Shown one piece after another: positions 15,345 through 54,551 of a stretch of DNA of 64,000 bases. Position 1 is the stretch's first letter, and every line of letters starts with the position of its first letter. Origin of the DNA: Sabellastarte sp. h YS-2021 (taxonomy: Eukaryota; Annelida; Polychaeta; Sabellida; Sabellidae). The stretch is from positions 93,594,537-93,658,536 of the forward strand of contig OZ024936.1 of NCBI GenBank assembly GCA_964017235.1, read 5' to 3'. The notes under the pieces were generated by a model, which saw nothing but the letters and a program-made list of their open reading frames with translations, made no database searches and was not told the origin of the DNA. The position numbers and the translations under genes were made by a program.

Positions 15345-15541
15345 TTTCATACTCCACTCCAACCTGAATAGCACAGAGTATTTCATAGATTTTCAATATT
15401 AATACCTCAAGTAATAGCTGTGTTATCCCTTTATTACTGTATCAAATAGTAACCCCGTAATATTTATGCAAATATTAAAAATATTACTTTGGTTTGTCTC
15501 TAATTGACCAAAACCCTTGAATCAGTTTTGGACCTGTTTTG

Positions 15542-15580
15542 TCTGGCTGTTGAACGGGACGTAAAACCCCAACTTTGACC
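15542..15580 (+). mobile_element. 39-bp stub of a 5'-truncated SINE
   Basis: Only the tail module is present (CTGGCTGTTGAACGGGACG ... CCCCAACTTTGACC), yet it is flanked by a perfect 15 bp target duplication TTTGGACCTGTTTTG (15527-15541 and 15581-15595). It sits inside the left-arm repeat. Confidence 0.75.
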
Positions 15581-16219
15581 TTTGGACCTGTTTTGAAAAA
15601 AGGTAAACACTGAATGATTACTTCAACTATATGAAGTGTACCATATATGGCATATTATATGTGATCAGTAATCAAATAATGAACCTGTTTTACCAATTTA
15701 AAATGTGAAGTAGTGTCTCTGCATGTTTCTATTTTTAGAATTAATTTCTAGAAGTAATGATCAGTTCATGGGTTTAATTTTGGTATATAACACATCCAGT
15801 ATTTCATTTGTTTTCATGGTGATAGCTCAGATGTTATCCCTTTATCATTGTACCAGATATCATTTTCTAAATATTTGTAGAAATATTAAACACATTGTCT
15901 TTTTTGGTCTTTTATTGCTGAAAACTCTGTGGTCAGTGTATGGGTCTGTTGGAAAAACAATGTTGTGCTTGACTTTTTCAATATATGTAGAAGCGTGAAT
16001 CAATTTATGGGTCTAACTTGGGTGAATTTTTTACTTTGAACCTGAATAACACAAAGAGTATTTCATATATTTTCAATGTTAATACCTCAAATAATAGGTG
16101 TGTTATCCCATTATTACTGTGCCAAATATTAACTCCCTAATATTTATACAAATATTAAAAATATTACTTTTTCTGTCTCTAATTGACTAAAATTTTGTGT
16201 AGTGATGTGTCTTCAAGTA

Positions 16220-16633
16220 GAAGAAAGAATCAATTGTGATCCTATTTTTTGACACTTTTTGAACTTTAAACCTCTATATCTTGACTTTTGGTCAACAGAT
16301 TTGAATGTGTAATAGCTCATTAGATAGGTATGTATCTTAGCTATTATGTACTAAACTTTTATCCGAATCATTATGTTAAAAATATATGAAATTCATAATT
16401 TTATCCTGATAAGTAGTGCAATACCTGTGGATCAATTAATGAGCCTAATTTGCACTATGTGAACCTTGGCGGTGCTGTGTGAGTTTTTAATGGTAAAATC
16501 AAGTGGGGTGGGCTAAGATACATACCTATCTAATGAGCTATTACACGTTAAAATGTGTTGAGTAAAAGTAAAGATATGGAGGTTTTAAGTTTAAAAAGTG
16601 TCAAAATATAGGATCATAATTGATTCTTTCTTC
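16220..16633. mobile_element. 414-bp Tc1/mariner-type MITE with long inverted ends
   Basis: About 120 bp terminal inverted repeats (GAAGAAAGAATCAATT...; roughly 88% alike) enclose a short centre. It is flanked by TA (16218-16219, 16634-16635). The other arm of the surrounding inverted repeat carries the uninterrupted site CAAGTACTTC (reverse strand of about 18951-18960), so a TA duplication on insertion can be read directly. No transposase is encoded. Confidence 0.8.
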
Positions 16634-16684
16634 TACTTCATTTATAAAAACTTTTTGTGTGTTTGATGTATAATAACAAATGTA

Positions 16685-16918
16685 TTTATTTATTTATTTG
16701 GGGCTTTACGTCGCTTTCAACACTGTACAGGTCATATCACGACGGGTAGTTGGAAGGGCAGAGGAAGCCAGTACATACAGTTTGCTAGGGTTGTGTACTG
16801 TAAACTGCTGACCAACGGCAAGCAACTACCAGCTTTCCCACTTAAGGCCATCATGGGGATCGAACCCCGGCCTCAGAGGTGGGAGGCGAGAGTGTTACCA
16901 CTCTGCCACCGTGGCCCC
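16685..16918 (-). mobile_element. full-length tRNA-derived SINE with target-site duplication
   Basis: On the - strand: GGGGCCACGGTGGCAGAGTGG head (A box), GGGTTCGATCCCC B box, tail AAAGCGACGTAAAGCCCC and (AAAT)n. Flanks TAATAACAAATGTA at 16671-16684 and 16919-16932 are identical. The matching arm at 18905-18925 lacks the SINE and shows one copy of this site. Confidence 0.88.
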
Positions 16919-17366
16919 TAATAACAAATGTAAACACATATTTATGTTTGGGGTGTTTTATTACAACATTTTCATTTTTCTGTTCATCACTCTTAATAAA
17001 TATTTAACAGTCTGGGGAAATAGCATTGGACAACATTACATAAAAACTTGCATTGTAAACTATACTAAGGTGCAAGACAAATGACAACTAAGAGCGATAA
17101 AATGTGTGCATAGTATCAAAATATCAATATCAAATCATTAATTGGTAAACTAAAAGTACCAAAGCTTTAAAATTTATTAATTGAAGCATTGATGTCAATG
17201 GAATTAACATAATTGGGTAGAATTACCTTTGACCAGAGCACTTGGAGAGTGCATACCTGTGCAAATGCATGTAATAATAAGTAAATAGATAAATCCATGT
17301 TATTTTTGTGTATTCAGATGATAATCCAGATCACTCGGAAAATTTAATGGGATCCAAGTTGGACAC

Positions 17367-18134
17367 ATCCCAGTAAACATTAGAAACGTTTAAATGGTTT
17401 AAATGTTTACAAAACATTTTAAAAACCTAATTAAACCCTATCTTATGGTTTTCTAAACGTTTCCAAGTAAACATTTAAATTGTAATGTTTAAAAAACATT
17501 TTATAAACATTCTCTAGACAAACTTTTTTACTGAAAACGTCTATTAAATGTTTATAAAATAACTCAAGAAGCTAGGTTTGACTTGAAACATTTTTAAAAC
17601 ATTTAAATAATAGCTGAAGAAATGAAGGTTTTGCTGGAAATGTTTTTCAAACATTTATCATGAAATGGTTGATAAACAGTACACATAAAATGTTTAAACA
17701 ACATTGCTTGTTAAAAATGTTTACAAAACATTCTATCAAAAACGTTTTTAAACCTATATTTTTAAACCTTCAAACATGTCTAAACAAAGATGGTGGTGAG
17801 CAATAATAGGGGACTTTAGAGAAATTTCTCAAAAAGTGCCCCACATGCAATTCCTAAAAGTAAGAATTGAATGGGGGCACAATTTCTAAGCCACTATTCT
17901 TACAATTTTAGACATAAAAATAACATTTTCAATAGTGAGCAACCATACAAAGACATTGAATTTGACCTCTTTTATAACGTTTTTCTAACATTTATCATTA
18001 AATGTTTAATAAACGGTATGTTTAAAATTTTTAAAAACATTCTATTACAAATGGTTTTTGTACCAATCATTTTTTAACCTTTGCCAAACGTTTCCTAACA
18101 AACGTTTGAAAAACCCCAAAATGTTTACTGGGAT
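17367..18134. mobile_element. 768-bp non-autonomous transposon built of AAACGTTT/AAACATTT motifs
   Basis: Perfect 15 bp inverted ends ATCCCAGTAAACATT ... AATGTTTACTGGGAT. The interior is saturated with short AAACRTTT/AAATGTTT palindromic motifs over about 17380-17780 and 17960-18125, separated by a plainer centre. No transposase frame. A clear target duplication was not identified. Confidence 0.75.
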
Positions 18135-18230
18135 CTTCTGATTTCTTTTCAGGAAGATCCTACTAGTAGTATTTACAATATCATGCTAATGCACAAGCAG
18201 ACAAAGAGACAAGCAGACAGTTATAAAAAT

Positions 18231-18363
18231 ATTTATTTGGGTTTTTACGTCGCTTTCAACATTGTGCAGGTCATATCACAACGGGTAGTTGGAAAGGAAG
18301 AGGAAACCAGTACATACAGCTGGTTAAGGTTCTGTACTGTAAACTGCTGGCCAAGGGCCCACA
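18231..18363 (-). mobile_element. 5'-truncated tRNA-derived SINE
   Basis: Contains only the 3' two-thirds of the family on the - strand; the tRNA head is missing. Flanked by TTATAAAAAT (18221-18230 and 18364-18373), so the truncation happened at insertion. Confidence 0.75.
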
Positions 18364-18390
18364 TTATAAAAATGATACCTCCTTGGCTAA

Positions 18391-18631
18391 AGAGGGGCCA
18401 CGGTGGCAGAGTGGTAACACTCTCGCCTCCCACCTCTGAGGCCGGGGTTCGATCCCTGTCACGGCCTGAAGTGGGAAAGCTGGTAGTTGCTTGCCACTGG
18501 TCGGCAGTTTACAGTACAGAACCCTAACGAACTGTATGTACTGGTTTCCTCTGCCCTTCCAACTACCCGTCGTGATATGACCTGTACAGTGTTGAAAGCG
18601 ACGTAAAACCCCAAATAAATAAATAAATAAA
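18391..18631 (+). mobile_element. full-length, young tRNA-derived SINE
   Basis: The best-preserved copy. A box in GTGGCAGAGTGGTAACACTC, B box GGGTTCGATCCC, body GGGAAAGCTGGTAGTTGCTT, CCTGTACAGTGTTGAAAGCG, tail ACGTAAAACCCC plus (AAAT)5. Target duplication TCCTTGGCTAA at 18380-18390 and 18632-18642. The head and internal promoter look able to recruit RNA polymerase III. Confidence 0.88.
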
Positions 18632-18810
18632 TCCTTGGCTAAGGTAATAATCAGTTGCAGCAATCTATGTATCATTGTCATGAGAGAAATATGTTACTGT
18701 AGAAAACATTTTGACATAGTCAAGGTCAAAGGTCAGACTAAGGTCGCAGTATGACATGTCACATCTATAACCCCTAGCCTATACCCCTACCAAGTATCAT
18801 CAAGGTTCTT

Positions 18811-19285
18811 TATGTAATGTTGTCCAGACTGCTACATTTTTTTAAGAGTGATGAAAAGAAAATGAAAATGTTGTAATAAAACACCCCAAACATAAATATG
18901 TGTTTACATTTGTTATTACCCATCGAACACACAAAAGTTTTTATAATTGAAGTACTTGAAGACACATCACTACACAAAATACTTGGCCAAAATAGGCTCA
19001 CAATTTGGTCAGTATAATTATGTTACAGTCTATATATAGTGAACTTGAAACAGATTCAGTCAAGTGTGACAAGGGCTTTGGTCAATTAGAGACAGAAAAA
19101 GTAATATTTTTAATATTTTCATAAATATTAAGCAATTAATATTTGGCACTGTAATAAAGGGATAACACACCTATTATTTGAGGTATTAACATTGAAAATA
19201 CATGAAATACTCTTTGTGTTATTCAGGTTCAAAGTAAAAAATTCACCAAAATTAGACCATTAACCTATTCACGCTTCTATCAACA
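18811..19285. repeat. right arm of the large inverted repeat
   Basis: Reverse complement of 15997-17050 without the MITE (16220-16633) and the SINE (16685-16918); 18976-19071 has no close match in the left arm. It serves as the empty-site copy for both insertions. Confidence 0.65.
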
Positions 19286-19552: not shown

Positions 19553-22500
19553 GTATGTGAAATAACTCATTATTAATGTAAAACAAAAACTGTGATATGT
19601 TAGAATTGCCATCCCACACCTACCACTGTGACATTTTGCAAAGAAAATTGAAGCTGATAAAATTTATTCCCTCCTTACCTGACCAATTTTATCTTAGTCC
19701 AGGTAAATACATATAAAACAACATATAAAATAGACTATATTTTAGTGAAATAACATATTAGATGGTTTAATAAAAACAAACTGAACTGAGAAGAGCACCC
19801 CTTGCAAGGTTTATATTAAAATTCAGCAACTCAAAAATACCAAAACCTAGCATGGATTTTATTCAGGAAACGTTCTTATTTTGTGCTTGATATCATAAAC
19901 AAAACCTGCTGACAATATAGGGCATCAGGGGCCGGTTTCACGAAGCCTCATTAAGATAAAGGTCACCTTAAATTGAAGGATTTGTTTGAATTTCTCCCCC
20001 CCCCCCCTCAGTTTCACAAAGCCTCCTTCTTTAAAAGAGACCTTGAAAACTTCCTTCAATTTCAAGGAAGCTAAGGACCTACCATAAATTTAAGAAAGTG
20101 TCCTTCAAGGAATGTTTAATAACTTTAACGCATTTTTACCCCCTCCTTAAGTTTCAAGGAAGACCTTTGGAAAGGAGAGATAAATGAAGCTTTGTGAAAC
20201 TGAATTTTAAGGTGGCCTTTCCAAAGGAATAAAAATGACCTTCCTTTACTAAAGGACGTCCCTTCCAAAGGAGGCTTGCGTGAAACCAGCCCCAGAACTT
20301 TGATAACAATGTAAATGTAATGTTTGTCAATAACCAGTTGATATGTACAAATAACCCAAACAGGCACTGGAGAAGAGAACATAAGTCTACTGGATATAGA
20401 ACAGAAGGATGTTGCTAACAAGTCTGTGTCACAAAGTGAAATGATATATGGCATTACAGATGTCCCACAGATATTCACAAGTCTACTGCTAGGTCTACAG
20501 GTAAATATAACTGGTTTTATAAAGTTCCCTCTTTTGTTGTCACGGGTGTAGATAATCATAATATCTAAAATTTTATTCTGATTTTATAATTGCATAAAGC
20601 ATTTTTTTCTGGTTCTGATTAAGCTGTATTCTTTTCTGTGGTATATTTTAACATTTTCTTTTAAAAAAGCAACATATGGAAAAACAGGTTCTGTTCTTGA
20701 ATATTTGTTAGCCTCACTCACCAAAGGGGATATTGGGGTCCTATTTTCTATAAAGGTTAAGTCCACTTGGAGTTCCGTGTTCTTCAAAGCAGAGTTGTTT
20801 TTGGCAATATCCGCATGCATAACTCAAAAATTATTCATCAGATGTTGACTTTTCAGCACTACCTGTTGTCGAGGCTTTGTACATTCTCAGACAGCGTTTG
20901 TTTATTAATGAAAGAATTTGGCTGAGATTAAGACATACTTTATCATTTATACTATGGTTTTATAAAGGTAAAAATAACTCAACTTATTTCTGGAAATCTT
21001 TATATTTATTGCATTCAGTTGTAAGATTGTATCAACATTTTTACAGGATATATATTCTGGAGAGTCCTTGCTTCCCCATTTAAAGCTTCTTTTAAGTGGG
21101 GTAGTAGAGATTTGCATGTGCAAACAAGGTATATTCTCCCAACAGGAGTGTTAATACTTGTATATCCAAGAACAAACTGCAACTACAGGTCGTACAGTGG
21201 GTTTATATGCATGCAAGGTACAATGCAAGTAAATGGGAAGAACCTACAAAGCTAGCAAGGGGAAGGCACATGCCCAAGAGAAATAGATGCATTTGTAGCC
21301 AAGCTTGAAGCATGCAAAGAATAATGTGCATGCCAATTTTATTGCAGGATCTCCGTGACCTTCAAATTCTGTTATAAAATTTCATGAGTACCTTAAGTAT
21401 CCCTTGCAAATTAGCCCATTTTCTCTGTACAATAAGATGTAAGAGAGGCTTCAATTTACATATGACTAAGCCAAAGTTAAATTTAAATTCATATGTGCCA
21501 ACTAGGCAGTCATTATGAATATGATTTTACATGTGCTTAAATAAATCTTATGCATATATTTTGGTACAACCTTAATGTCACGGTTTCAGTCTAAAGTAGT
21601 GTAATATTACATTTACATTAATGCAAAGTAAATGATAATGTCATAGTTATTTATTCATTTTTATTTATACAACAGTTAACATAAATGCTCTGTAGCTGGG
21701 GTGGTATTTACTAACATTTTTAGTCTTAGTCCTATCTTATACACAATTATCAGTCATCAATATCTAACGATATTATAAATCAATTATCAAATTTAGTTAC
21801 TAATTTACAAGTATATTGATTCTACATGAAGATTTAAGAGCTAAAATTGTGCTTACTGTAATAAAAATAAAACCAGGCATATGATTAAAATGATAAACTT
21901 CTAAAGTTAGGACTAAGACTAAGATAGGAATGTTAGTGAATACCGCCCCAGGTGTCTTACTATATTCCCAAGGGGTTGAGGCTGTTAAAATTTTCAAAAA
22001 TGTTTATTTTAGGGCATTGCAAAAAATTATAATAAATTATGATAAGGCAATTTGATTCTGGGAATTTAGTGTTTGATAAAATGTTGATGGCCTTCGTGCA
22101 TTCTTCCACTGATAGAGTCTGATGACATAACAACTTAACATAACATTAAATTCTCAAATTGTGGTGATGAAGAGACTTTCATGTTTTGTTGTGTCAAAGT
22201 GATTTGTGATATTCTGAAAACAAATTGTGTAATTTTTCGTCACTCTTATCATTAAAATTGGCCCAAAAATTCCATAGGCAAATTTAAATCCTGTAGCATT
22301 GCTATAAGGTATCCTATTTTTAATATGTATATTTCTTCTACCTTACTGATAGCACTTTGTGTTATTCTGTATGTTACTGTGTATCAAGTGAAGCTATACA
22401 TTTGCAATAGCATCTCTCCATCCACAGTATCTTTTTGGTGTCCAGCTGTCATCATTTTGTTTCACAGGAGGTACAGCATTTGTTTCACTTTTTGTGGCAT

Positions 22501-25500
22501 GTAATACTGATTAAAATAGACGGATAGATTTATTTTATTATAGTGACATGTGATGTTTTTACAGTGTGATAAGATAATAATTCGACATTTTGACTTTTTT
22601 TTTACCCAGCCCTACATGGGCTTATATGTCACTTTAAACACAAGTTGATAGTTAAGGTCACAGGTTCAGTCACATATAACAAATTACAAATTAATTGATA
22701 TTTTGAAACTGAAAAATTAGTGTGATAACAATATTCTTCACGTTTAAGCCATGCTTTAACTAAGTAAATAGACAATGCCTTCTGATGATCATTTTTTATG
22801 TAGATAAATATTTCCAGTTCATTGAAAGTTGAAAACATGTTACATTTGTTTGTAATTTCTGTATAAAGTTCCTGTCTAATTTCATTGTAGGCAGGACAGA
22901 CACACACAAAAATGAAATTCATTCTCAACCAAATTCTCTGAATAAATGACACATAGTTGTTCTTCATGACCTAGATACCATATGTGTATTACTGTTAATG
23001 TCAATCACAGGATTTAATCATCCAGTTTCAATATATGTACTGCAGTCCCCAAGAACCACACAATGAGGTTATATTATTTATTTACTAATCTATATACTAC
23101 CATTGACTTTCCAATACATACAGTTATACATAACAATACATTGGGGATACCAACATTAATTTACAGTCCAAGATTACAGCAAGGTATCCCAGATTACATA
23201 AGCACCTTTTTAAGATTTTAGTACACCAATATGATAAAGTTAAGATATACATAAGAATTTACTATCATCAACCCAAAGTATAAACTTATCACATAACATA
23301 CACTATACAACAATGAATGACATGTAAAAGATGTATGTAAATTTATTCACGTCAACATTACTTTACATTAGATTACTAAGGCTTTCCAATTACTGAACTT
23401 GGAAGAAAGTAATGATGAATTACTAAATTTTTGAATCCCAAGGCCAAAGAATGAGAGCAAGTAATTTTGAAAAAGTAATTACCCATGTTACTAAGTAAAC
23501 TTTTAGATAAATGAACTTGTATATGTCAAAGTATAATGTATAATACTGAATACATACAAAGTAGAATAAATTCTATTATGTAAAAGATATGGCTAAGAAC
23601 CCTTAAGAACACTAAAGACACATGAATAACATACTAAAATAAGTAAAACAGATTATAAGTTAAACAACACATTATCCGCACATTATACAGTATAGCACCA
23701 AACCATAATAAAAGAAATAAAAACTAGCCATTAAACAAGTTAAAAAGCTACTTCAATAACCATTACCAGCAGAAATTGCATCAAATCAGTTACGATGACA
23801 CATCAGAAGGCAATTACTTACTACCAATTGCAACCAGAAAACCTAAGCGAAGTTCCCACACTACATCAGGCAAATTAAATCTTCAGCACAATAAAATTAA
23901 CCACTATCAATTGCAACAGAAGCCAATTGCAGACTTTACATGATCAAACACTTGCAACTCATCAGCAATTGCAATAAAGAAGCTATTACAACATTTACCA
24001 CTACCAATTGCAACAGAAACCAATTACAGACTTCACATGAGCAGACAATTACATATCATCAGCAATTGCAATGAACAAAGCCAGGAGAGGAGCACTTCAC
24101 TGTTTATCAGCTTCTGGCTGACCAATCCAAACCGCAGCATACCAGAAGGAGACAGGAGCTGCCACTGCCTCCTCAGCTCTCCTGGCATGACTTGCTCAAT
24201 CTAAGGCCCAGGATTTGCATTTTTTGGAACCTCACCATCATATCACCAAACAATCTGAAACTACAAAGAAACCTTTAAGATTTTGCCTAATTAAGGGAGG
24301 GAGGGTGGGAAAACATGTCTGTCATTCCCAAAACTGAAATTTGAACTGAAGGGGTTCCCTTGTCAGAATGTAGCTATTATGAATTGACCAATGGTCTTAC
24401 AGTGACCATAGCAACGTAGCAAACCTTTAACCAAGCTACCTAGCCAGAGCTAAGGCTCCATTCTACAGAAAAGTAGCCAGGGCGGCTCAGTGGACTGAAC
24501 CCCACAACACTATGGTGTAGTGGAGCACAGTCCCCAAGAACCACACAATGAGGTTATATTATTTATTTACTAATCTATATACTACCATTGACTTTCCAAT
24601 ACATACAGTTATACATAACAATACATTGGGGATACCAACATTAATTTACAGTCCAAGATTACAGCAAGGTATCCCAGATTACATAAGCACCTTTTTAAGA
24701 TTTTAGTACACCAATATGATAAAGTTAAGATATACATAAGAATTTACTATCATCAACCCAAAGTATAAACTTATCACATAACATACACTATACAACAATG
24801 AATGACATGTAAAAGATGTATGTAAATTTATTCACGTCAACATTACTTTACATTAGATTACTAAGGCTTTCCAATTACTGAACTTGGAAGAAAGTAATGA
24901 TGAATTACTAAATTTTTGAATCCCAAGGCCAAAGAATGAGAGCAAGTAATTTTGAAAAAGTAATTACCCATGTTACTAAGTAAACTTTTAGATAAATGAA
25001 CTTGTATATGTCAAAGTATAATGTATAATACTGAATACATACAAAGTAGAATAAATTCTATTATGTAAAAGATATGGCTAAGAACCCTTAAGAACACTAA
25101 AGACACATGAATAACATACTAAAATAAGTAAAACAGATAAGTTAAACAACACATTATCCGCACATTATACAGTATAGCACCAAACCATAATAAAAGAAAT
25201 AAAAACTAGCCATTAAACAAGTTAAAAAGCTACTTCAATAACCATTACCAGCAGAAATTGCATCAAATCAGTTACGATGACACATCAGAAGGCAATTACT
25301 TACTACCAATTGCAACCAGAAAACCTAAGCGAAGTTCCCACACTACATCAGGCAAATTAAATCTTCAGCACAATAAAATTAACCACTATCAATTGCAACA
25401 GAAGCCAATTGCAGACTTTACATGATCAAACACTTGCAACTCATCAGCAATTGCAATAAAGAAGCTATTACAACATTTACCACTACCAATTGCAACAGAA

Positions 25501-28500
25501 ACCAATTACAGACTTCACATGAGCAGACAATTACATATCATCAGCAATTGCAATGAACAAAGCCAGGAGAGGAGCACTTCACTGTTTATCAGCTTCTGGC
25601 TGACCAATCCAAACCGCAGCATACCAGAAGGAGACAGGAGCTGCCACTGCCTCCTCAGCTCTCCTGGCATGACTTGCTCAATCTAAGGCCCAGGATTTGC
25701 ATTTTTTGGAACCTCACCATCATATCACCAAACAATCTGAAACTACAAAGAAACCTTTAAGATTTTGCCTAATTAAGGGAGGGAGGGTGGGAAAACATGT
25801 CTGTCATTCCCAAAACTGAAATTTGAACTGAAGGGGTTCCCTTGTCAGAATGTAGCTATTATGAATTGACCAATGGTCTTACAGTGACCATAGCAACGTA
25901 GCAAACCTTTAACCAAGCTACCTAGCCAGAGCTAAGGCTCCATTCTACAGAAAAGTAGCCAGGGCGGCTCAGTGGACTGAACCCCACAACACTATGGTGT
26001 AGTGGAGCACAGTCCCCAAGAACCACACAATGAGGTTATATTATTTATTTACTAATCTATATACTACCATTGACTTTCCAATACATACAGTTATACATAA
26101 CAATACATTGGGGATACCAACATTAATTTACAGTCCAAGATTACAGCAAGGTATCCCAGATTACATAAGCACCTTTTTAAGATTTTAGTACACCAATATG
26201 ATAAAGTTAAGATATACATAAGAATTTACTATCATCAACCCAAAGTATAAACTTATCACATAACATACACTATACAACAATGAATGACATGTAAAAGATG
26301 TATGTAAATTTATTCACGTCAACATTACTTTACATTAGATTACTAAGGCTTTCCAATTACTGAACTTGGAAGAAAGTAATGATGAATTACTAAATTTTTG
26401 AATCCCAAGGCCAAAGAATGAGAGCAAGTAATTTTGAAAAAGTAATTACCCATGTTACTAAGTAAACTTTTAGATAAATGAACTTGTATATGTCAAAGTA
26501 TAATGTATAATACTGAATACATACAAAGTAGAATAAATTCTATTATGTAAAAGATATGGCTAAGAACCCCAAACCCCACTATGTAGAAGTAGAGGAAGAG
26601 AGTGTAGACTGAAAAGCAAGAGCAACTGCCGATGAGGTACTGGAATCTTGAATGAGGTACCTCCAGACACTGTCTGAGGTCCAGGTACCATGGGATTTAA
26701 TATCCTGTAACCTGACATGTTTATTAAAGACATAAGAAGCTCCAGACCTACGAAAGCTATGAAAGGTTAAGGAGGAGGAACCCAGACCTAATTTTTTGAG
26801 GACTAATTTAAAGTGATATCTAACTTTTGAATCAGTTAAGACAGACCATTTACTATGATTTTTTATTTGGAACAAAGGGGAGTTGTTCCCGGAGGGAATC
26901 AGAGATAGAAGCACTCTTAAAGCCATGATGGGACAAAGAGGTGAATGCTGTAAAAAAGGTAAGTCAATGATTTTGACTCTATCACGAGTTTGAATGGTTT
27001 TTGACCATTTTATGATGATCTTACCTGAGGACTTACCTAAAATAACATCCCCTCTGGCCAAGTGGCGAGAGGGATCAAATTGGGTACTGGCATGTGGAAC
27101 TATATTAGATAAACGTAAGAAACTGTAAAAAGCAAGCAAATATATAGCTTTAAAAATTTGTCCCATATACATTGAATCACAGACTTGAGTAATTTTTTGT
27201 AATAACGAAATATCAATTATGGAAGGCATGGAAACAGAAATGGGTCTGTTCATCTGAACAGATTTGATGAATAATTTAATTTTTGGAGAATCAAACATTG
27301 CCAGGGGAAGGCCATAAAGGCCAAACATGGCTTTCACAGCGGATACATGATTGGCCACTGATGAATAGGATGCTCCATTTCCTGTTAGAAATTCCATGAA
27401 GGCCAAAATGACTTCAGAAGTAACTTGCTGAAATGCAATATTTAAAAACACACAAAACCCTACAAATAAGGAAAACATTGAGTCATAATTTCTTTGGGTG
27501 TTGGGTCTGAAGCCAGATTTTGCTCTGTGGAAGGCCCTGGAGCTAAGGGAAGCTGCAACAGGATGAAGACCTGAAAGTAAATCATATGGTCCAGTCAATA
27601 CGCAACATGTCAAGATGTACAGGAACCCATTGAGGGCTTGCTATGTACTGTTTTAATTTTACCATATTGTCAGTAACGGTGGGCCATCTTGACAGTAAGT
27701 CTGCTACTGTGTTCTGAATACCTGGGAGGTGAATTACTGTTACTTCTATATCAAAGACTGAGGCTAGCATCTGTATGTTCCTAGCGTATGCTGCTAGGAC
27801 CGGATCTCTGGTCCTACCAGTCTTTAACACAGTAACCACTGCTTGGTTATCACATTCGAATCTGACCCTTCGACCAGCCCAATACTTGGCCCAAATTCTA
27901 AGTGCAAGATAAACATTTAGCATTTCTAATTGAACTATGCCAAGATTGTCCATGCCTAGTGGTATTTGCAAACTATATACACAGTTATTCCATCTACCCC
28001 CTAGCCCTTGTAGAGAGGCATCCACTTGTACAATGCCTTGTAGCAATTGATGATTATACAGACACACGCCATTGAAATGAGGTAAAAAATTTTTGAACCA
28101 AGTTAAGTCTTTGTAAAACTCTTCATTTAGTTCAACAATATCTGCATTTTTTGCATTTCTGAGATTTTGTAGCATCCTGTTAAGAAAAGATCTCGAACTT
28201 TTTACACATTTTGTGATATGCATAAGTGAACCTAACAATGACTGAAGGTCCCGCTTTCGAACCCGACTTCTGTTTTCCCATGCAGTACACATGTGCATAA
28301 TTTTTTGTAATTTTTCTGGTGGTACAGCAATGGTGCCTTGTACTGTATCTATTTGGACGCCAAGGCAAGTGACTAACGTACTTGGAGGGACCAATTTCTT
28401 CTTGCTGATAGTGAGGCCTAATTCTTGGAGGAGATCACACAAGTATTGAAAGCTATCATAAACAGTACTGGGCAGTCCAAAACCAATCAGATCATCTATA

Positions 28501-31500
28501 TAATTTATGATATCATAATTTTGTTTGTTCATAATGAATCTAACTGCATCGCTGGTTCTCTGAAAAATTTTACTTCCATGTTTGAATCCGAAGGGCAGGC
28601 AAGAATCAAAGTAAAACCCATCCCAATTTAGACCCAATTTTTGATAATCTGAAGGATCCATTTTTATATGCCTGAAGGCACGACTTATATCCACCTTGTA
28701 TAGGAGACAACCCCGTCCAAGTCTTGTGATCTGACTAGTAATATCATCAATAGAGGGAAAAGTTAACATAAATTTAGTACCCATGTAATGGTCAGAATCC
28801 ACAAAATCATTCACTGAATTCCCCTTGGGCCAACTTAGGTCCACTATGACCCGTCTGTTCTCGGAATCTGGCTTTTCCCTGGTGAGAAAGGGACTACAAT
28901 GCAAATTTTTAAAAGGTTTTTCAGTAAAAGGGCCATGCATTGCATTAAAACTTCTTTCTTCCTGTAAATAAGTGTCTACATGGGAAGGGAACAGGGTGGC
29001 CGACTTATGATTTGACCAATCACAAGTTAAGTCAGCATTTGGTTGAACATCTAGCGGAAATCCAAATTTTATATACTGAACTAACTGCCAGTCCCAATAG
29101 TTCTGCAAATGTTTTTCCCAGGCCTGTGAATTCAATTGACTTTCCAATAATAAGCGTTCTTTTTGAAAGTTATACACACCAGAAGCACTTATTTGACGAT
29201 GGGCCTCAATGGGGGACTGTATTTTCCCATTTTCTTCCCAATTTTTAACTCCCACCAGGGGACTGAGAGGTATAAAGCCAAAAAGGAATTTATTTTGAGC
29301 TTTCCAGTTCTGAAAGTCTGGGACAGAAGCCGCTTCTCGCAATTGTTCTTGTTTAGCAAGTTTGCAATCCCATAATGGGACTTTTTCACAAAAATCTGGG
29401 ATATATTGGTCTACAACTGGGGACGGTATCTCCCGACTACTGCACGGTTCCGTGTCAACATTGGTGGCATTTTTAGTGACTACACCGTTATTTGCAGCAG
29501 GAAAACTGTGGGAATGATCCGGTTCACAGTGTTTATTTGTTCCTGTGTCATTTAACATGTCAACAACCACTCCATTATTAACTGCAATATCATGAACTGC
29601 GACAGACTTACCTTCAGATTCTGAAATAAAATTTATTTTCTCATCTGTATGTTTACCAAGTACTGAAGTGGAATTAACACGTACTTTCCGCGACTTTTCC
29701 ACCTTGTTTTCCACATGACTGTGTATACTGTCACTCGAATCAATGTGAGAATCAATATCAGTGTCAAGGGCGTCAAATTGGTTTTTTACAGGAACACTAT
29801 AACACCTATCTTGAACAACATGACACAATTGTTTGGGTGAACTATTCGTTTTAGCCCTACTAATATTAGCAACACTATTTACACCATCACTTGTACCTGT
29901 TTGTGATACATTTCTGCGAATATTTTTATTTGCCTGACGTTTATTTACAAATCTAAATTTGCTGTTATATATAACTCTAGTAGTAACAATTTTTTCATCA
30001 CAATTTTTTGGCACTGCACTATTGCAGTGCCCTACTCGTTTTTTGGCTTTTTTTCTGATTTTTTACAGTCTTTTGCTGCATGGAAACCTTGACAATGTGT
30101 ACATACATGTCTATACTTCCTACCCGCACTGATATGGTCTTTTGCATGGCTGCAAGTGCCAATTTGGAAAAATTTACAAATAAACCCCAACTCTTTGAAA
30201 TTTTTTTGTGATTTATTGTTTGTCCCATTAGTACTGGAAGAGGTGATATTTTTTTGAGCATGAGCTCTACGGACCCTGTCCAACCCTTGTGTGTCCTTCC
30301 ATGTCAGTTTGCCATCTTCCATGCGGCACAATGCCACAGCATGGGCAGCTTTGGCGGATGCCCAAGAAAAATCTTGGGCATCCTCCATTAAGTCAGCTAA
30401 ATATTCAAGCATACTATTTTTAACCTCCATATCCGATTCATCTTGGGCAATACGAGCAAACCCCGACACCCATTGAAACACATTTAATTGATCATAAGAA
30501 GGCCTAGATCTTGTAGAACCTGACAGAACTTGATTTTGTGGCCATGGAATTTTAAATTTAACTGTAACTTCATCATTGACAGATCTTTGAGATTTAAATT
30601 TACCTTGTAAGTCTCTATCATTGATCTTTTTCAGCTCATCCATCCTTTCTTTCACCTTCTTTTGCAGCTTGGGATCTTCTTTAATGAATTTCTTGGATGG
30701 CATCACCATTTCTGCATCCGAGGAGTCGTCATCACTGCTGGAAGATTGAGGTACTGCAGGTACTTTCTTCTTGAGATGTTTGGCTTTACTGTGATGTTCA
30801 TCAGGAGTGAAGGCATCCTGCAACTTCTTCTCAGTAGATGACAGCCTCTTCTCCATAGAATTCATTTGAGAACTTAAATTTTTCATTTCCTTTAACAATA
30901 AAGCGTTCGTATCACTAGTACCAACACTGGAAGTACTCGCAGTAGGTTCCACACTGTCAATACTCGAGTTGCTAGTGTCCAGGTCGCTGTGGCCCTTGGG
31001 CGGACCGACCACCACTGTACATTTTTGTCCAACTGGTCGCTGATGTTTTGTGTCACATTTATGGCAATGGAAGTACTTTTGCCTCCCCATTTCAATTTTT
31101 TATAATGAATAGGTTTAAGTCAATGTTAATACTCTGAAAACATAAAGAAGCACCTCGTGCTTAGACTTTGTCAGACAAAGTTAGACCTATCGCTTATAAT
31201 CTCGACGGTTAAAAAAGGCATAAAGCACAAGAAAGCATAGGTTAGACCGTCCCTCAGTATTATAAGCAACAAGCATAAGGTTGTCTATCAAAGTCGCCAG
31301 GTAGAACAGCAAGAGTAATGATTAAAACAGTTCAAATAAAAACAATAAAATCCATGTTGGAGTTCAAGTTTTTAACACAACATAAAACATGTCTGTCATT
31401 CCCAAAACTGAAATTTGAACTGAAGGGGTTCCCTTGTCAGAATGTAGCTATTATGAATTGACCAATGGTCTTACAGTGACCATAGCAACGTAGCAAACCT

Positions 31501-34500
31501 TTAACCAAGCTACCTAGCCAGAGCTAAGGCTCCATTCTACAGAAAAGTAGCCAGGGCGGCTCAGTGGACTGAACCCCACAACACTATGGTGTAGTGGAGC
31601 ATAATATGATGACATTCTTACACACACATATATATATATATAAATTCTTTCACGCCTTTTTCAAACAATTTTTGTTTTATAATTTTATTATATTTCAGCA
31701 CTTCCTTGCAATGTTTTTTTCAAATCTTGGAATATCTGTTATCATAAGCACTGCTTTATGTATGGCTGAAGACCCGGTTGTCAGAATAGAAATTTTTGGT
31801 GTGATATTCTTTACCAGTGGTCTCTGTTCTATAATCCAGGTTTTACTTGGAGTGAGGTAAAGTAATTCTTTTTGTGCATTTATAATTGATCAACTTCCCA
31901 GTTGACATATATGAAAAAATATATCACAAATACAACGTAAATATTAGGTTTTTTTTAATGCCAAGATATGTATATGCTACAGTGAATATGGGTATTCTTT
32001 GAAGTCTTCAAGGAATATACAGATGCCCTGTTTTTTGATAACCAAGATATACATATATTCCCTTTATAAAACAGGTTAAGAATACAAATTTTCAAGGTCT
32101 CAGATCAATAAAATGAGGTAATAAATGTATGTAAAGGCTTTATGTGGTTTTCGTTACAGTAAAAACGAAAAAAATATAAAACTTTTATTAATTATGTATT
32201 ATTACCCATTGCAATAGGAAAACGCACAAATACCCAATAAATCATTACAGCTTACCTAAAGATAGTCACATTATTTATCTACATCAGGTTCAGCTCAACA
32301 GTAGAAGTCTTGATTTTGCTGCAGCTTCAATGTTTTGAAACTTTGTAGATGTTAGTTTTTTTAAAATTACAATGCATTCTGAGTAACCATGTCAGGATAA
32401 TTACTGCAAACATTTAAGTTCATTTAAAATATATATATATATATAATTTTCAGGATAATGGATTGTTTTACATTTCAATAAGTCTCTTTTTAAAGTTTCT
32501 GATTCAGATAATTACTTTTGCATGACATTTAAAAAAAAAGATAAGTTGTCTAATATGGAACACAGGAATTTTCATGGAAGGACTAGGATCTTTTGTGGCT
32601 GGAGTAATAGGTAATGGAGTTGGAACCACATCATACAGTCAAAATGTTGGATTAGTTAGTCTGACAAAGGTAATATTGATTTACACATACATATCAGTTT
32701 TGTTGATGTTATTGTTGTATGTTTGTTTTTCTCTTGCAAATACATTTATATATTTTTTTCTCTTTCTAGAACCATTAAACAATTAGGAAGCAAACCCTTA
32801 TTTTAATTCACTAACGCACAAGAAATTATGGACTACATGATAGACACATATATGGAATATATATACATCAAATCTGATTTCTGTCTCCTACAATTTTCTT
32901 TGCATTTGTATGGGTATTATGAGACCATAAATTGCAGCTATACGCTAAAATAGGTCAGAATTGTGTGCAAGTTTTGAAATTTATTTCTTTGAGCTAGCAT
33001 CCACACTATTTATTTGGAATATTTAGATGTACCGCATGATTGTTCAAAAATATCATTGTTCCGACAAAATTTTGTACTTCAATAAATTTCCCAAGATGAA
33101 AATAGTTTGATTTGTGCTTTGAATATCACATAGCAATCTCAGGTCAAACAGAGATGAAGAATAAAAGTGTACAAATGTACCATATTATTTTCAATTGTAA
33201 AATATTTTGCTGTTTTGGGGATTAAGTTTCAACTTATTTAGTGATAGGCAAGAACTTGTTTAATCTTTCAACACCTCAGTCACATTTTATAGGTGAGATA
33301 TATGTAGAACTCTGTACCACCAGCAAATAAGTAAACGTCATCATGAACTTACTGAAGCTAAAAATAGTGTGGGACATAAGACTGGATATTTGCCTAAATA
33401 GAAATAGAATTTGACTCAGTGCTGTGAATTTCTCATTTTATTTTTAGAGGATTACTGAGGGAACCAAAGGCCAGTTGGCCTCCAAATACCTAAATATTAG
33501 TGCTTAGTTTTTTCATTTTCATTTATGTACACACCTGTTTGTCAATGGTTTATTATTTCAAAGGAACATGTCCACAAATATAAGACCATATGCATCACAC
33601 AACTGCTTGCATTTTTATTGTAACAGAATAACTGATTATTATAGTTCTCATATATTAATGCTAGCTGCTACAATTAGTTAGCTATTCATGTTTTATAAAA
33701 ATTTTAAAATTTAATTACATTGAGCATCACATGTAAAGTTATTAAAATATCATAGCTACAAACATGTCCACATGTATATAAAGGCAGTGTTATATCATTT
33801 TAGAACTTTTCCTACACAAGTGTGTGGAATATCATAACCAGTTTTCAAACTGTAATAAAATAATTAAAACACAAGGCTCCTAATGCCGAGGACAACTTCA
33901 CATTAATTATCGAGCATCTTTTATACACATCTCATAATGCTTGTCATTTAGTTTTGAATTTATATGTTATAAATGAAGGCAGGTGAATTCTTCAAAGTGC
34001 TAATATATCTTTATGAGAATTGAATTGTTATGTTAAAATCTTCAACTATACGTTGAATCCATTTACCATCAAATCATCCAATCACTGCTCATCATAGCAT
34101 GATTTGACCTTAGCCAGATGAAACCAATGTAGAATAAATATATATACATATTAACATAACTTTTTTTTCATCAGTAATTGAAAATATCAAACCTCTGATA
34201 TATTTCCCAGGTAGCAAGCAGAGCTGTTTCATTTTATGCTGCAGGGATAATGATTTGTGTGGCAATATTCAACAAATTTGGAGTAGTATTTGTGACAATT
34301 CCCTTGCCTGTTATTGGAGCTGCATTTTTCCTTTTGTTTGGTCTGTACTTAATTTAATGGAAGATTTATTACCTCTGCCAAGGAGGTTACATTTTTGCCT
34401 GGATTTGTTTGTGGGTTTTTGAGTGTGTGAGTCTGTTTGTGCATTTGTTTATGAACAAGATAACTCAAAATTTATGGATGGATTTTGATGAAATTTTCAG

Positions 34501-51991: not shown

Positions 51992-53080
51992 ATTTTTCCC
52001 AAACCTATAGGTTACTCTAGTAGAGTACAAGAAAGATCAAGACTAACTAGACCCATTTGATAGAATATAGAGAAAACTAATAATCCAATGTCCTTATTCC
52101 CCATTTACACTACAGGTGGTATACCCCATGTTAGTAAGCATTAGGTGAAATGCCCCTGCCCTTCAACTAGCATCTGACACTTGTATGTGAACTTGTGACA
52201 AAGTGGCGAACCTTCAGATACCTTCAGCATCCTATGGAAATTGTAAACTGTTTCAGTCACTGAATTTGGAACCATAAGCATGACCAGAAGAAGTTTTCAT
52301 ATGGTTACTGGAAGTGTGGTCCGTGGTTTATATATAAGATGGAGCTAAATGGAGGTTGTCTCTCACCAACACACCTTTGTACCACTCTCGACCTACTGCC
52401 ATCCTGCCATCCCTGATGGTTACACCCTGTGTCCAATCAGTGGCTGTGTGTATCATACCTGATGGATACACCGAATCTCAGAAGACATGAAGCACCATAG
52501 GAGATGGTTCTGCCCCGGCGTAAAACTTCTAGCCACAGGGTATACTGCCTGTAGTGCGAATGGGGCATTTTTTGTTTAAACAACTCTGTACTAACATGCA
52601 AACAGGCAGCACAGTACCCTTGTATGTAAGAGTAAAGAGGAAAATAAGTGCAAAACTGAGCAACAGCAGGAAAATCTACTGGTCCAGTATGTTCTAGATA
52701 TTGTAAATGGGGGTGGGGGGGTGGGGGGGGTAAAGACGCCACATATTTCATTGCTCCAGTTCCTAGTTAAAAGTTACTTCTTGTTTGTCCTGGTTAATGT
52801 TAATTGGGTGACCTTTGACCTTTAAATTAAATATTTTCCCGCTAAAACCTTACTTTCCTCACTCTTGAGAGGGAAGTCGAACTGCAAGGACGCCATTTTA
52901 ATTACTTTGTGTAACACATGCTAAAATTTTTCATGTGTTGGTTGTAAAGTGATTTCTCAGAAGTATTTTATAAGTTTATTTTAAATTTATTTTAGTATAT
53001 TGTATCAGGCGTCCTGTAGTGTATATAATATGGTATTATACTGTTTCTGTTTTAACATGTCGTGACGGGTGAGTTGAACT
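51992..53080. other. non-coding, with a G-run
   Basis: 52709-52730 is G5-T-G7-T-G8, able in principle to form a G-quadruplex. A TATATATAAG core-promoter-like patch occurs near 52333. No gene recognised. The last 200 bp may belong to the retroelement that follows. Confidence 0.4.
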
Positions 53081-53084
53081 CTGT

Positions 53085-53549
53085 GATACTTTATCTTGCA
53101 TACTACCAGGCCCTGTGTTATATGAAATCTCTGTTTGCTTTTCATGCGGCTTTGTTGATATGCTTAAGGTGTTTAATACAGTATAGACGTTGATACTATT
53201 CCACTGTCAAATCTGTGATATTTTGTCTTGCATACTGCTGGGCTCTGCGTGTAAAAAATCTGTGTTTGTTTTACGTGGGTTTGTTGATATGCCTCAGGTA
53301 CTTAATACAATATAAACATTAATACTATTTTCCTGTCAACTCTGTGTTACTTTGTCTTGCATACTACTGGGCCCTGTGTTATATGAAAACTTTGTTTGTT
53401 TTCATGCGGGTTTGTTGATATGCCTAGGTATTTAATACAGTATAAACATTAATACTATTTTCCTGTCAACTCTGTGTTACTTTGTCTTGCATACTACCGG
53501 GCCCTGTGTTATATGAAAACTTTGTTTGTTTTCATGCGGGTTTGACAGT
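53085..53549 (+). repeat. four tandem ~130-bp leader repeats before gag
   Basis: Units begin at CTTGCATACT in 53095, 53227, 53356 and 53486 (spacing 132, 129, 130). Each carries GGSCYCTGTGT and TTTGTTTGTTTTCATGCGGG. The later units are the more alike, and the last runs into the gag start. Variable-number leader repeats of this kind may act as promoter elements. Confidence 0.75.
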
Positions 53550-54551
53550 ATGCCTAAATTATTTCACTGCTCTAAATGTGGGGAGGAACACAGGAGGCCT
53601 GTGGGTAGCAAATGTCAACTGTATGTAGAAAGTACTGCAAGTACTTCCGCTACTCTTAGGGATGACAATGTGGATGACAGAACTAATTCGCAAATTCTCA
53701 GTGCACTTAATGCTGTTAGTTGTAGGCTGTCGGCTATTGAGCAACGGATAGACAGAACCGAGGAACAACTTCAGGGTCATGTGAAGACTGGTTCCGACAT
53801 AGCCGGTTCCCTGAACGTGAGCAGCACACCCTTACAGGATGTGGGAGAGGAAAGTGACGCTGGGGACGACATCGTCATCCCATCTACAAAGTTTCTTAAA
53901 ACCTCCAAGAGTATACAAGATGCAGTAGACATCAGGCTCCAAGAACTGGCCAAGCTAAACGAGCAAGGTAAGTTCAAGTCACAGAGAGGCAATAATGATC
54001 AGGTCATAGTAAAACAGCAAATACCCTGGCCTCAGAATTATATTCTGGCAGGTACTTCCAAATCGAGAGTCACGTATGATAGTTTATCCAGTTTTCAATG
54101 GATGGCGGGTTTTAGTGCTATAATTAGAGAGGAAAAAAATGTAAAAATCAAAAATGCCATGCTTGAGTACATGACGGATATCATGGAAGATGCCCAAGAT
54201 TTTGGCTGGGCTACGGCTAAAGGGGCTCATGCCCTTATCCTCTGTCGCATGGAGGAAGGTAAAGTTGATTGGTTGAGCTCGGAAAAACTGGATCGCTTGA
54301 GAAGAGCACATGCTCAAAAAATTGTGACAAGTACGGGAGGTAACTCACATCCCACAAAAAATAAAGTCGAGGCTCAAGGGGTACCTTGTAAGTTTTACCA
54401 ATCCATGAAATGTAGTCACAAAAATGACCATACCACAAATGGCCAGTTATATAAGCACATTTGTACTCATTGCTTTAGTTTAGGCAAAAAATTTGCACAC
54501 CCATTGAAGGACTGTAGAAATAAGCGTCAACAGGACGCAAAAAACGAATAG
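53550..54551 (+). CDS. gag-like protein of the second Ngaro-like element
   Basis: Start chosen at 53550 (MPKLFHCSKCGEEHRRPVGS), because it lines up with the start of the gag at 31090; the eight codons upstream belong to the leader repeat. Shares the N-terminal CxxC knuckle, GKFKSQRGNNDQVIVKQQIP, SSFQWMAGF, LDRLRRAHAQK and the C-terminal Cys/His cluster (CKFYQSMKCSHKNDH). Confidence 0.8.
   Translation: MPKLFHCSKCGEEHRRPVGSKCQLYVESTASTSATLRDDNVDDRTNSQILSALNAVSCRLSAIEQRIDRTEEQLQGHVKTGSDIAGSLNVSSTPLQDVGEESDAGDDIVIPSTKFLKTSKSIQDAVDIRLQELAKLNEQGKFKSQRGNNDQVIVKQQIPWPQNYILAGTSKSRVTYDSLSSFQWMAGFSAIIREEKNVKIKNAMLEYMTDIMEDAQDFGWATAKGAHALILCRMEEGKVDWLSSEKLDRLRRAHAQKIVTSTGGNSHPTKNKVEAQGVPCKFYQSMKCSHKNDHTTNGQLYKHICTHCFSLGKKFAHPLKDCRNKRQQDAKNE

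Follow-up and report, generated by a model that had tools for sequence, protein, structure and literature searches.

A stretch of 64,000 nucleotides of contig OZ024936.1 from the annelid Sabellastarte sp. h YS-2021 (positions 93,594,537 to 93,658,536, forward strand), hereafter the window, carries a young Ngaro-like tyrosine-recombinase (YR) retrotransposon whose normal 3' tail, A2-C-B2, is doubled head to tail. The tandem duplication is real and recent, and we put at about 0.7 the probability that its source was a homologous exchange, unequal and involving the repeats B1 and B2 of sister chromatids or homologues, or an equivalent replication slip. Relatives of the element in the same genome suggest ordinary repeat recombination rather than a separate small mobile element, and the agent was presumably host homologous recombination. 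An earlier sequence-only reading had noted two nearly identical units of about 1.48 kb, head to tail, at the end of a Ngaro-like split-repeat element, had judged the duplication recent, and had offered two origins: multiplication of the end unit when B copies exchange unequally, or an A-C-B circle joined in by the recombinase. The tandem was confirmed, and both the Ngaro-like classification of the element and the recent date of the duplication are supported. The product classes and the private variants shared by the two units favour the first of the two origins.

The element (23043-31601, minus strand) has the order A1-gag-RT/RNaseH-YR-B1-(A2-C-B2)-(A2'-C'-B2'), where RT is reverse transcriptase. 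Read on the plus strand, the region 23043-26569 is B(560)-C(707)-A(218)-B(560)-C(704)-A(218)-B(560), with repeat starts spaced 1485 and 1482 bp apart (Table 1). All three B copies are identical (560/560), as are all three A copies (218/218, the third being 31384-31601); exact repeats of such length are beyond chance. The sole difference between the two tail units, of 1482 and 1485 bp, is one 3-bp indel in C, where unit 1 is without 3 bp found in unit 2 and in six other copies of the family.

The genome searched comprises 1.79 Gb in 647 contigs, the window being G000:C14:93594537-93658536; loci such as C8:111076076 are given as contig label plus coordinate and are distinct from the spacer C. 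A search with 23043-26569 returned six other copies of the window family at 97-100% over the tail, each with one A2-C-B2 tail. Four have a full body, one (L011) is cut within the body and one (L014) within B1, only part of which is kept ahead of its A2-C-B2; no zero-unit form, that is, a copy ending at B1, was found among the six. The sequence searches for family copies scored 40 of 146 and 40 of 147 candidates, and the counts that follow therefore rest on pattern searches. The pattern for the 3' end of B gave 106 genome matches, of which 100 were listed (control: 0 forward, 3 reverse), that for the 5' start of A gave 74 (control 0), and that for the B/A junction, with up to 3 mismatches, gave 28 (control 0). 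These matches were strung together into 84 groups; those with a single end (26 B, 7 A), the four B/A, three B-B and A-A groups and the partial copies were examined in part.

The census comprises 18 zero-unit, 16 one-unit and 2 two-unit elements, plus 2 solo A-C-B units. Fifteen zero-unit elements are compact A-genes-B copies with ends 5.4-5.8 kb apart that stop at the B terminus and give way to other DNA, in which neither A nor C finds a match over 560-620 bp; three longer ones (C5:35748024, C5:24073635 and C6:24043601) are interrupted by other DNA and show no A or C match in the ~660-700 bp past B. The clean ends of the zero-unit copies are partly due to selection, because copies were picked by the B-end pattern. 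Twelve one-unit elements have the exact order A-genes-B/A-C-B, and four have a mismatched, damaged or interrupted part. The two-unit elements (A-genes-B/A-C-B/A-C-B) are that of the window and one in a sister subfamily at C8:111076076-111084335, here called the C8 element. Both solo units (C2:156119562 and C3:174189424) belong to sister subfamilies and are intact, with clean ends and flank duplications of 0 and 1 bp; the terminus census found none of the window's own family. Judged by terminus patterns, the 18 elements that carry one unit or more include no permuted A-C-B/A-genes-B copy and no copy in which a B/A site joins a second gene body. Two further candidates were rejected. What looked like a third tandem at C3:61572016 has 1.25 kb between its B and its A, and this stretch matches none of A, B and C. 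The long-spaced A-B pair C5:35748024 is not taken as a gene-body dimer, since a 2-kb piece taken from the middle matches no element part.

B1 and B2 are long direct repeats about 1.5 kb apart that could pair out of register. Exchange between B2 of one copy and B1 of the other would yield a two-unit and a zero-unit product, exchange between B1 and B2 within one chromatid would yield the zero-unit form only, and recombination between A1 and A2 would leave a solo A-C-B unit. That all of the expected product classes (zero, one, two and solo) exist supports repeat recombination. B measures ~0.5-0.65 kb with ends 1.2-1.8 kb apart, and A measures 218-222 bp with copies ~5.6 kb apart; the commoner loss (18 zero-unit elements vs 2 solo units) thus goes through the longer and closer repeat, the direction that repeat length and distance predict.

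The B/A junctions are strongly conserved between subfamilies and, together with the two clean-ended solo units, this speaks for a different origin, in which an A-C-B circle entered the B1/A2 junction through the action of the tyrosine recombinase, with cassette-like gain and loss at B/A sites. A recombinase acting freely on B/A sites should, however, give permuted copies and gene bodies at those sites, and the count of 0/18 supports repeat recombination instead. No solo unit of the window family was found, and the private variants common to both window units, described below, would require the circle to come from the same lineage. We regard this origin as quite improbable. We give little credence to the broader proposal that every B/A junction is a live recombinase site and the A-C-B tail a cassette, excised as a circle and then reinserted in tandem or lost, with tail number deciding the ability to replicate; zero-unit copies would then be sterile, because they are without A2, B2 and the conserved core of C.

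The position of C bears on the same question. C sits between A2 and B2 in all six other window-family copies, at 94.8-99.2% identity over C, and its 5' part comes after A2 in 14 sister-subfamily loci (L015-L028); A2-C-B2 is therefore the standard tail in this family as well as in its sister subfamilies. The latter are 75-80% identical to the window family in the body and keep the same order, with C of variable length around a common 5' stretch of ~230 bp. The first 230 bp of C are 79-83% identical between subfamilies, somewhat above the coding body, and a core within them (window 25565-25692, minus strand) has 89 of 128 positions identical across 13 aligned subfamily rows. The possibility that C is an intruder was rejected, since the one-unit copies examined contain C and conservation is somewhat higher in its 5' part than in the coding body. 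A genome search with the ~230-bp stretch returned 39/39 scored candidates, most of them inside or beside these elements, with five short matches (55-98 bp) at places without any listed A or B end. The RNA fold of the core is no better than that of shuffled sequences (z -0.52); as a guess, the core could be a cis signal for replication or transcription. The sequence-only reading had taken C to be unusual and never adjacent to the genes. The first part fails, C being the normal spacer. C is absent after A1 in 5/5 window-family copies with A1 covered (window, L009, L010, L012 and L013). With C a normal spacer, the six family copies single-tailed and no permuted copy, the joined circle that it proposed finds no support. 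Nor does the unit appear to be a small non-autonomous mobile family, which should have solo copies at many independent sites: the search for solo units found two, both in sister subfamilies. All other copies plain and no free unit, the finding named in advance as counting against a mobile unit, describes the window's family and does not describe the sister subfamilies.

The two window units have in common two variants in C that are absent from all six other family copies, so both most likely descend from one unit; derivation from two different parents among the copies sampled was rejected on these variants. The two units of the C8 element differ by one base. Both of its A2 copies carry a base absent from its A1 and from the A copies of three relatives; its B1 has two private bases absent from the middle and last B, and its last B has a one-base insertion absent from the middle B. 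The middle B, with neither the B1-private bases nor the B2-only insertion, fits what a B2-to-B1 hybrid would look like. In the published model of replication, A1 is rebuilt from an internal A copy in each round, and the equality of A1 and A2 in 4/5 window-family elements and of B1 and B2 in 5/6 is in keeping with it. If A1 is so rebuilt, the base shared by the C8 A2 copies arose after insertion and before duplication, which points to duplication of the C8 unit in place, after insertion. At its outer ends the C8 element fits a precise empty site. Among seven places listed at 95-98% identity, four further host-repeat copies match the joined flanks over 59-60/60 positions on the left and 196-198/200 on the right. 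The junction shows no duplication and no loss, and one base 3 bp from it differs from all four copies. The tandem is read from assembled sequence, and a search for a second haplotype of the window locus turned up none (24/24 candidates scored, the sole full match being the window itself), which leaves some room for an assembly artefact, with the unit doubled by the assembler. We consider such an artefact very improbable, as the units differ by 3 bp in the window and 1 bp in the C8 element, two independent cases in different subfamilies.

If units are lost repeatedly, zero-unit copies should not form one lineage. A tree of 35 rows, built on up to 1950 bp ending at B1, holds 15 zero-unit, 18 one-unit and 2 two-unit copies; the three interrupted zero-unit copies are outside both trees described here. 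The zero-unit label requires 11 changes on this tree, against a shuffled mean of 11.6, and the zero-unit copies therefore do not form a single lineage. They sit on longer end branches (median 0.0155 vs 0.0042, one-sided p 0.009). A cleaned tree of 30 rows, leaving out L011, L032, L036, L022 and L025, gave 8 changes and p 0.003. The value of 0.009 from the full set is the fairer one, because the dropped L022 and L025 are long-branched one-unit rows whose removal favours repeat recombination; the branch of L011 in the full tree is inflated by non-element flank. The nearest relative of each of the zero-unit copies L043, L040, L029 and L033 has one or two units (98.1-99.6%), and no zero-unit pair at 99% or more occurs among the nearest relatives listed. 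The scatter and the long tips fit recurrent loss by recombination between B1 and B2, with little spread of the zero-unit form.

Several points weigh against this account. The zero-unit pairs L030/L031 (98.3%) and L038/L039 (96.5%) allow some spread of the zero-unit form. The branch-length gap is uneven in the five mixed subfamilies, L043 and L033 being shorter than their one-unit sisters and L038 and L040 similar to them, and it partly reflects older subfamilies rich in zero-unit copies. No allele pair with and without the unit was seen, and we infer unit loss at the present sites of the zero-unit copies. The hybrid pattern of the C8 middle B can equally be explained by a later 1-bp insertion in B2. 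No crossover point is readable in the window, because its three B copies are identical. Finally, a template switch from one B repeat (B1 or B2) to the other in the course of reverse transcription, adding or dropping a unit before integration, could give the identical set of products, and the identity of A1, A2 and A2' and of B1, B2 and B2' in the window means that the duplication may date back to the insertion itself. We consider template switching unlikely: the derived base of A2 and A2' in the C8 element is missing from A1, which places it after insertion if the model of A1 rebuilding holds, and the young window family has no zero-unit copy among the six others found.

The assignment to Ngaro-like elements follows published defining features (accessible text of PMC4157794 and PMC9210276) and the A-pol-B-A-B order (accessible text of PMC3783388). 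Like Ngaro, the element has a gag-like open reading frame (ORF), RT/RNase H and YR in that order, and split direct repeats, A1 ... B1-A2-B2, with the internal repeats downstream of YR. The RT and RNase H rest on Pfam matches in ORF2, and the tyrosine recombinase on a SAM-like N-terminal domain, the catalytic-domain model Phage_integrase (0.015) falling below the cut-off. ORF3 had no match to solved structures at E 1, ORF1 and ORF2 had none to NCBIfam, and none of the three ORFs matched a methyltransferase family at E <= 0.01, a Dam-like methyltransferase being a mark of DIRS and PAT elements. The element gave no Rfam match at E 0.1 and no hit in a tRNA scan. No flank duplication surrounds any of the 5 complete window-family copies, the window element being one of them, and the C8 element fits its empty site. 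The truncated copy L014 departs from the expected lack of target-site duplication: it has an exact 31-bp flank duplication, which is unexpected for recombinase insertion. This copy (L014:5673-7469, in G000:C14:93745500-93754500) is 5'-truncated, with part of B1 followed by A2-C-B2, and sits, by eye, within an apparent gag stretch of another element. Unlike Ngaro, A2 and B2 are set apart by a long spacer C of ~0.4-1.1 kb; 2 elements have a doubled tail unit and 18 have none.

Table 1. Features of the window element and imperfect one-unit copies elsewhere in the genome
Feature	Position	Strand	Remarks
A1, 5' terminal repeat, 218 bp	31384..31601	-	starts TGCTCCAC; identical to both A2 copies
ORF1, 352 aa, gag-like by position	30032..31090	-	zinc-knuckle-like tail (by eye); no Pfam family above cut-off
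ORF2, 810 aa, reverse transcriptase + RNase H	27582..30014	-	RVT_1 2.7e-9, RVT_3 7.5e-5
ORF3, 344 aa, tyrosine recombinase	26579..27613	-	Phage_int_SAM_5 7.8e-7, above cut-off; Phage_integrase 0.015 and XerA_Arch 1.7e-5, both below
B1, 560 bp	26010..26569	-	ends GGGGACTG
Tail unit 1 (A2-C-B2), 1482 bp	24528..26009	-	A2 25792-26009, C 25088-25791, B2 24528-25087
Tail unit 2 (A2'-C'-B2'), 1485 bp	23043..24527	-	A2' 24310-24527, C' 23603-24309, B2' 23043-23602
B1/A2 junction, TTCTTGGGGACTG joined to TGCTCCACT	26009..26010	-	putative recombinase site
Extra second B/A junction, made by the tandem	24527..24528	-	from B/A junction search
Imperfect one-unit copy	C7:35844642		locus L019
Imperfect one-unit copy	C14:88128078		locus L020; 15 kb between A1 and A2 read by patterns only
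Imperfect one-unit copy	C4:8031264		insertion in A2
Imperfect one-unit copy	C1:37253247		damaged, with added DNA

At G000:C4:8036919-8044135, other DNA of ~6 kb breaks the A2 of a one-unit element after 17 bp, and the break is marked by a repeat of ~3 bp. On either side of the window element, the stretches 20440-20500 and 31699-31857 look exon-like by eye, and we take them to resemble an SLC23-type transporter gene; the one exon-like piece run against Pfam gave no match. Related matches at 80-82% occur on the same contig, at a distance of about 0.24 Mb. Beside the element, window 15372-19263 holds several nested inverted and direct repeats with arms of up to 240 nt, 94% complementary, and window 53077-53555 is a tandem array of a 130-bp unit in 3.6 copies.

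Exchange between direct repeats, unequal or within one element, is known to add or remove segments in long terminal repeat (LTR) retrotransposons, giving solo LTRs and tandem elements that share an LTR. Unlike in the LTR tandems, the non-coding A-C-B tail alone is repeated here, and not the whole coding element. Among split-repeat elements, SIRE of trypanosomes matches A2 and B2 of VIPER, between which it has an exclusive stretch of ~30 bp (accessible text of PMC6681497), and so corresponds to a solo A-C-B unit such as those found here; unlike SIRE, our solo units are few (2), and the search yielded none of the window's family. For TATE, the same text mentions whole copies in tandem, and attributes complex repeat patterns perhaps to assembly errors or to copies inserted inside copies. 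Solo AB repeats of Cafeteria burkhardae Ngaro, for which recombination of 5' and 3' repeats was suggested and a comparison with solo LTRs drawn, are a precedent for the solo units; zero-unit and two-unit copies are described here and receive no mention in the accessible text of PMC8547959. The sequence-only reading knew of no tandem tail units in Ngaro or PAT elements, and we likewise found no report in the literature searched, most subscription-journal papers being outside it. The tandem tail is modestly new as a variant, and the census of elements with zero, one and two units is more useful than the window copy itself.

In a full circle, nothing in the A and B repeats would tell the internal B1/A2 junction from the closing B2/A1 junction. 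With no permuted copies (0/18), integration seems always to occur at the closing junction; why this should be so is worth explaining, and testable. In the replication model referred to above, the B1-A2 region is the template that restores the element ends, and copies that have lost it should therefore be unable to move again. Zero-unit copies are about as many as one-unit copies, and repeat recombination may thus be a major way in which such elements die, in a proposed parallel to solo LTR formation as a death route of LTR elements.

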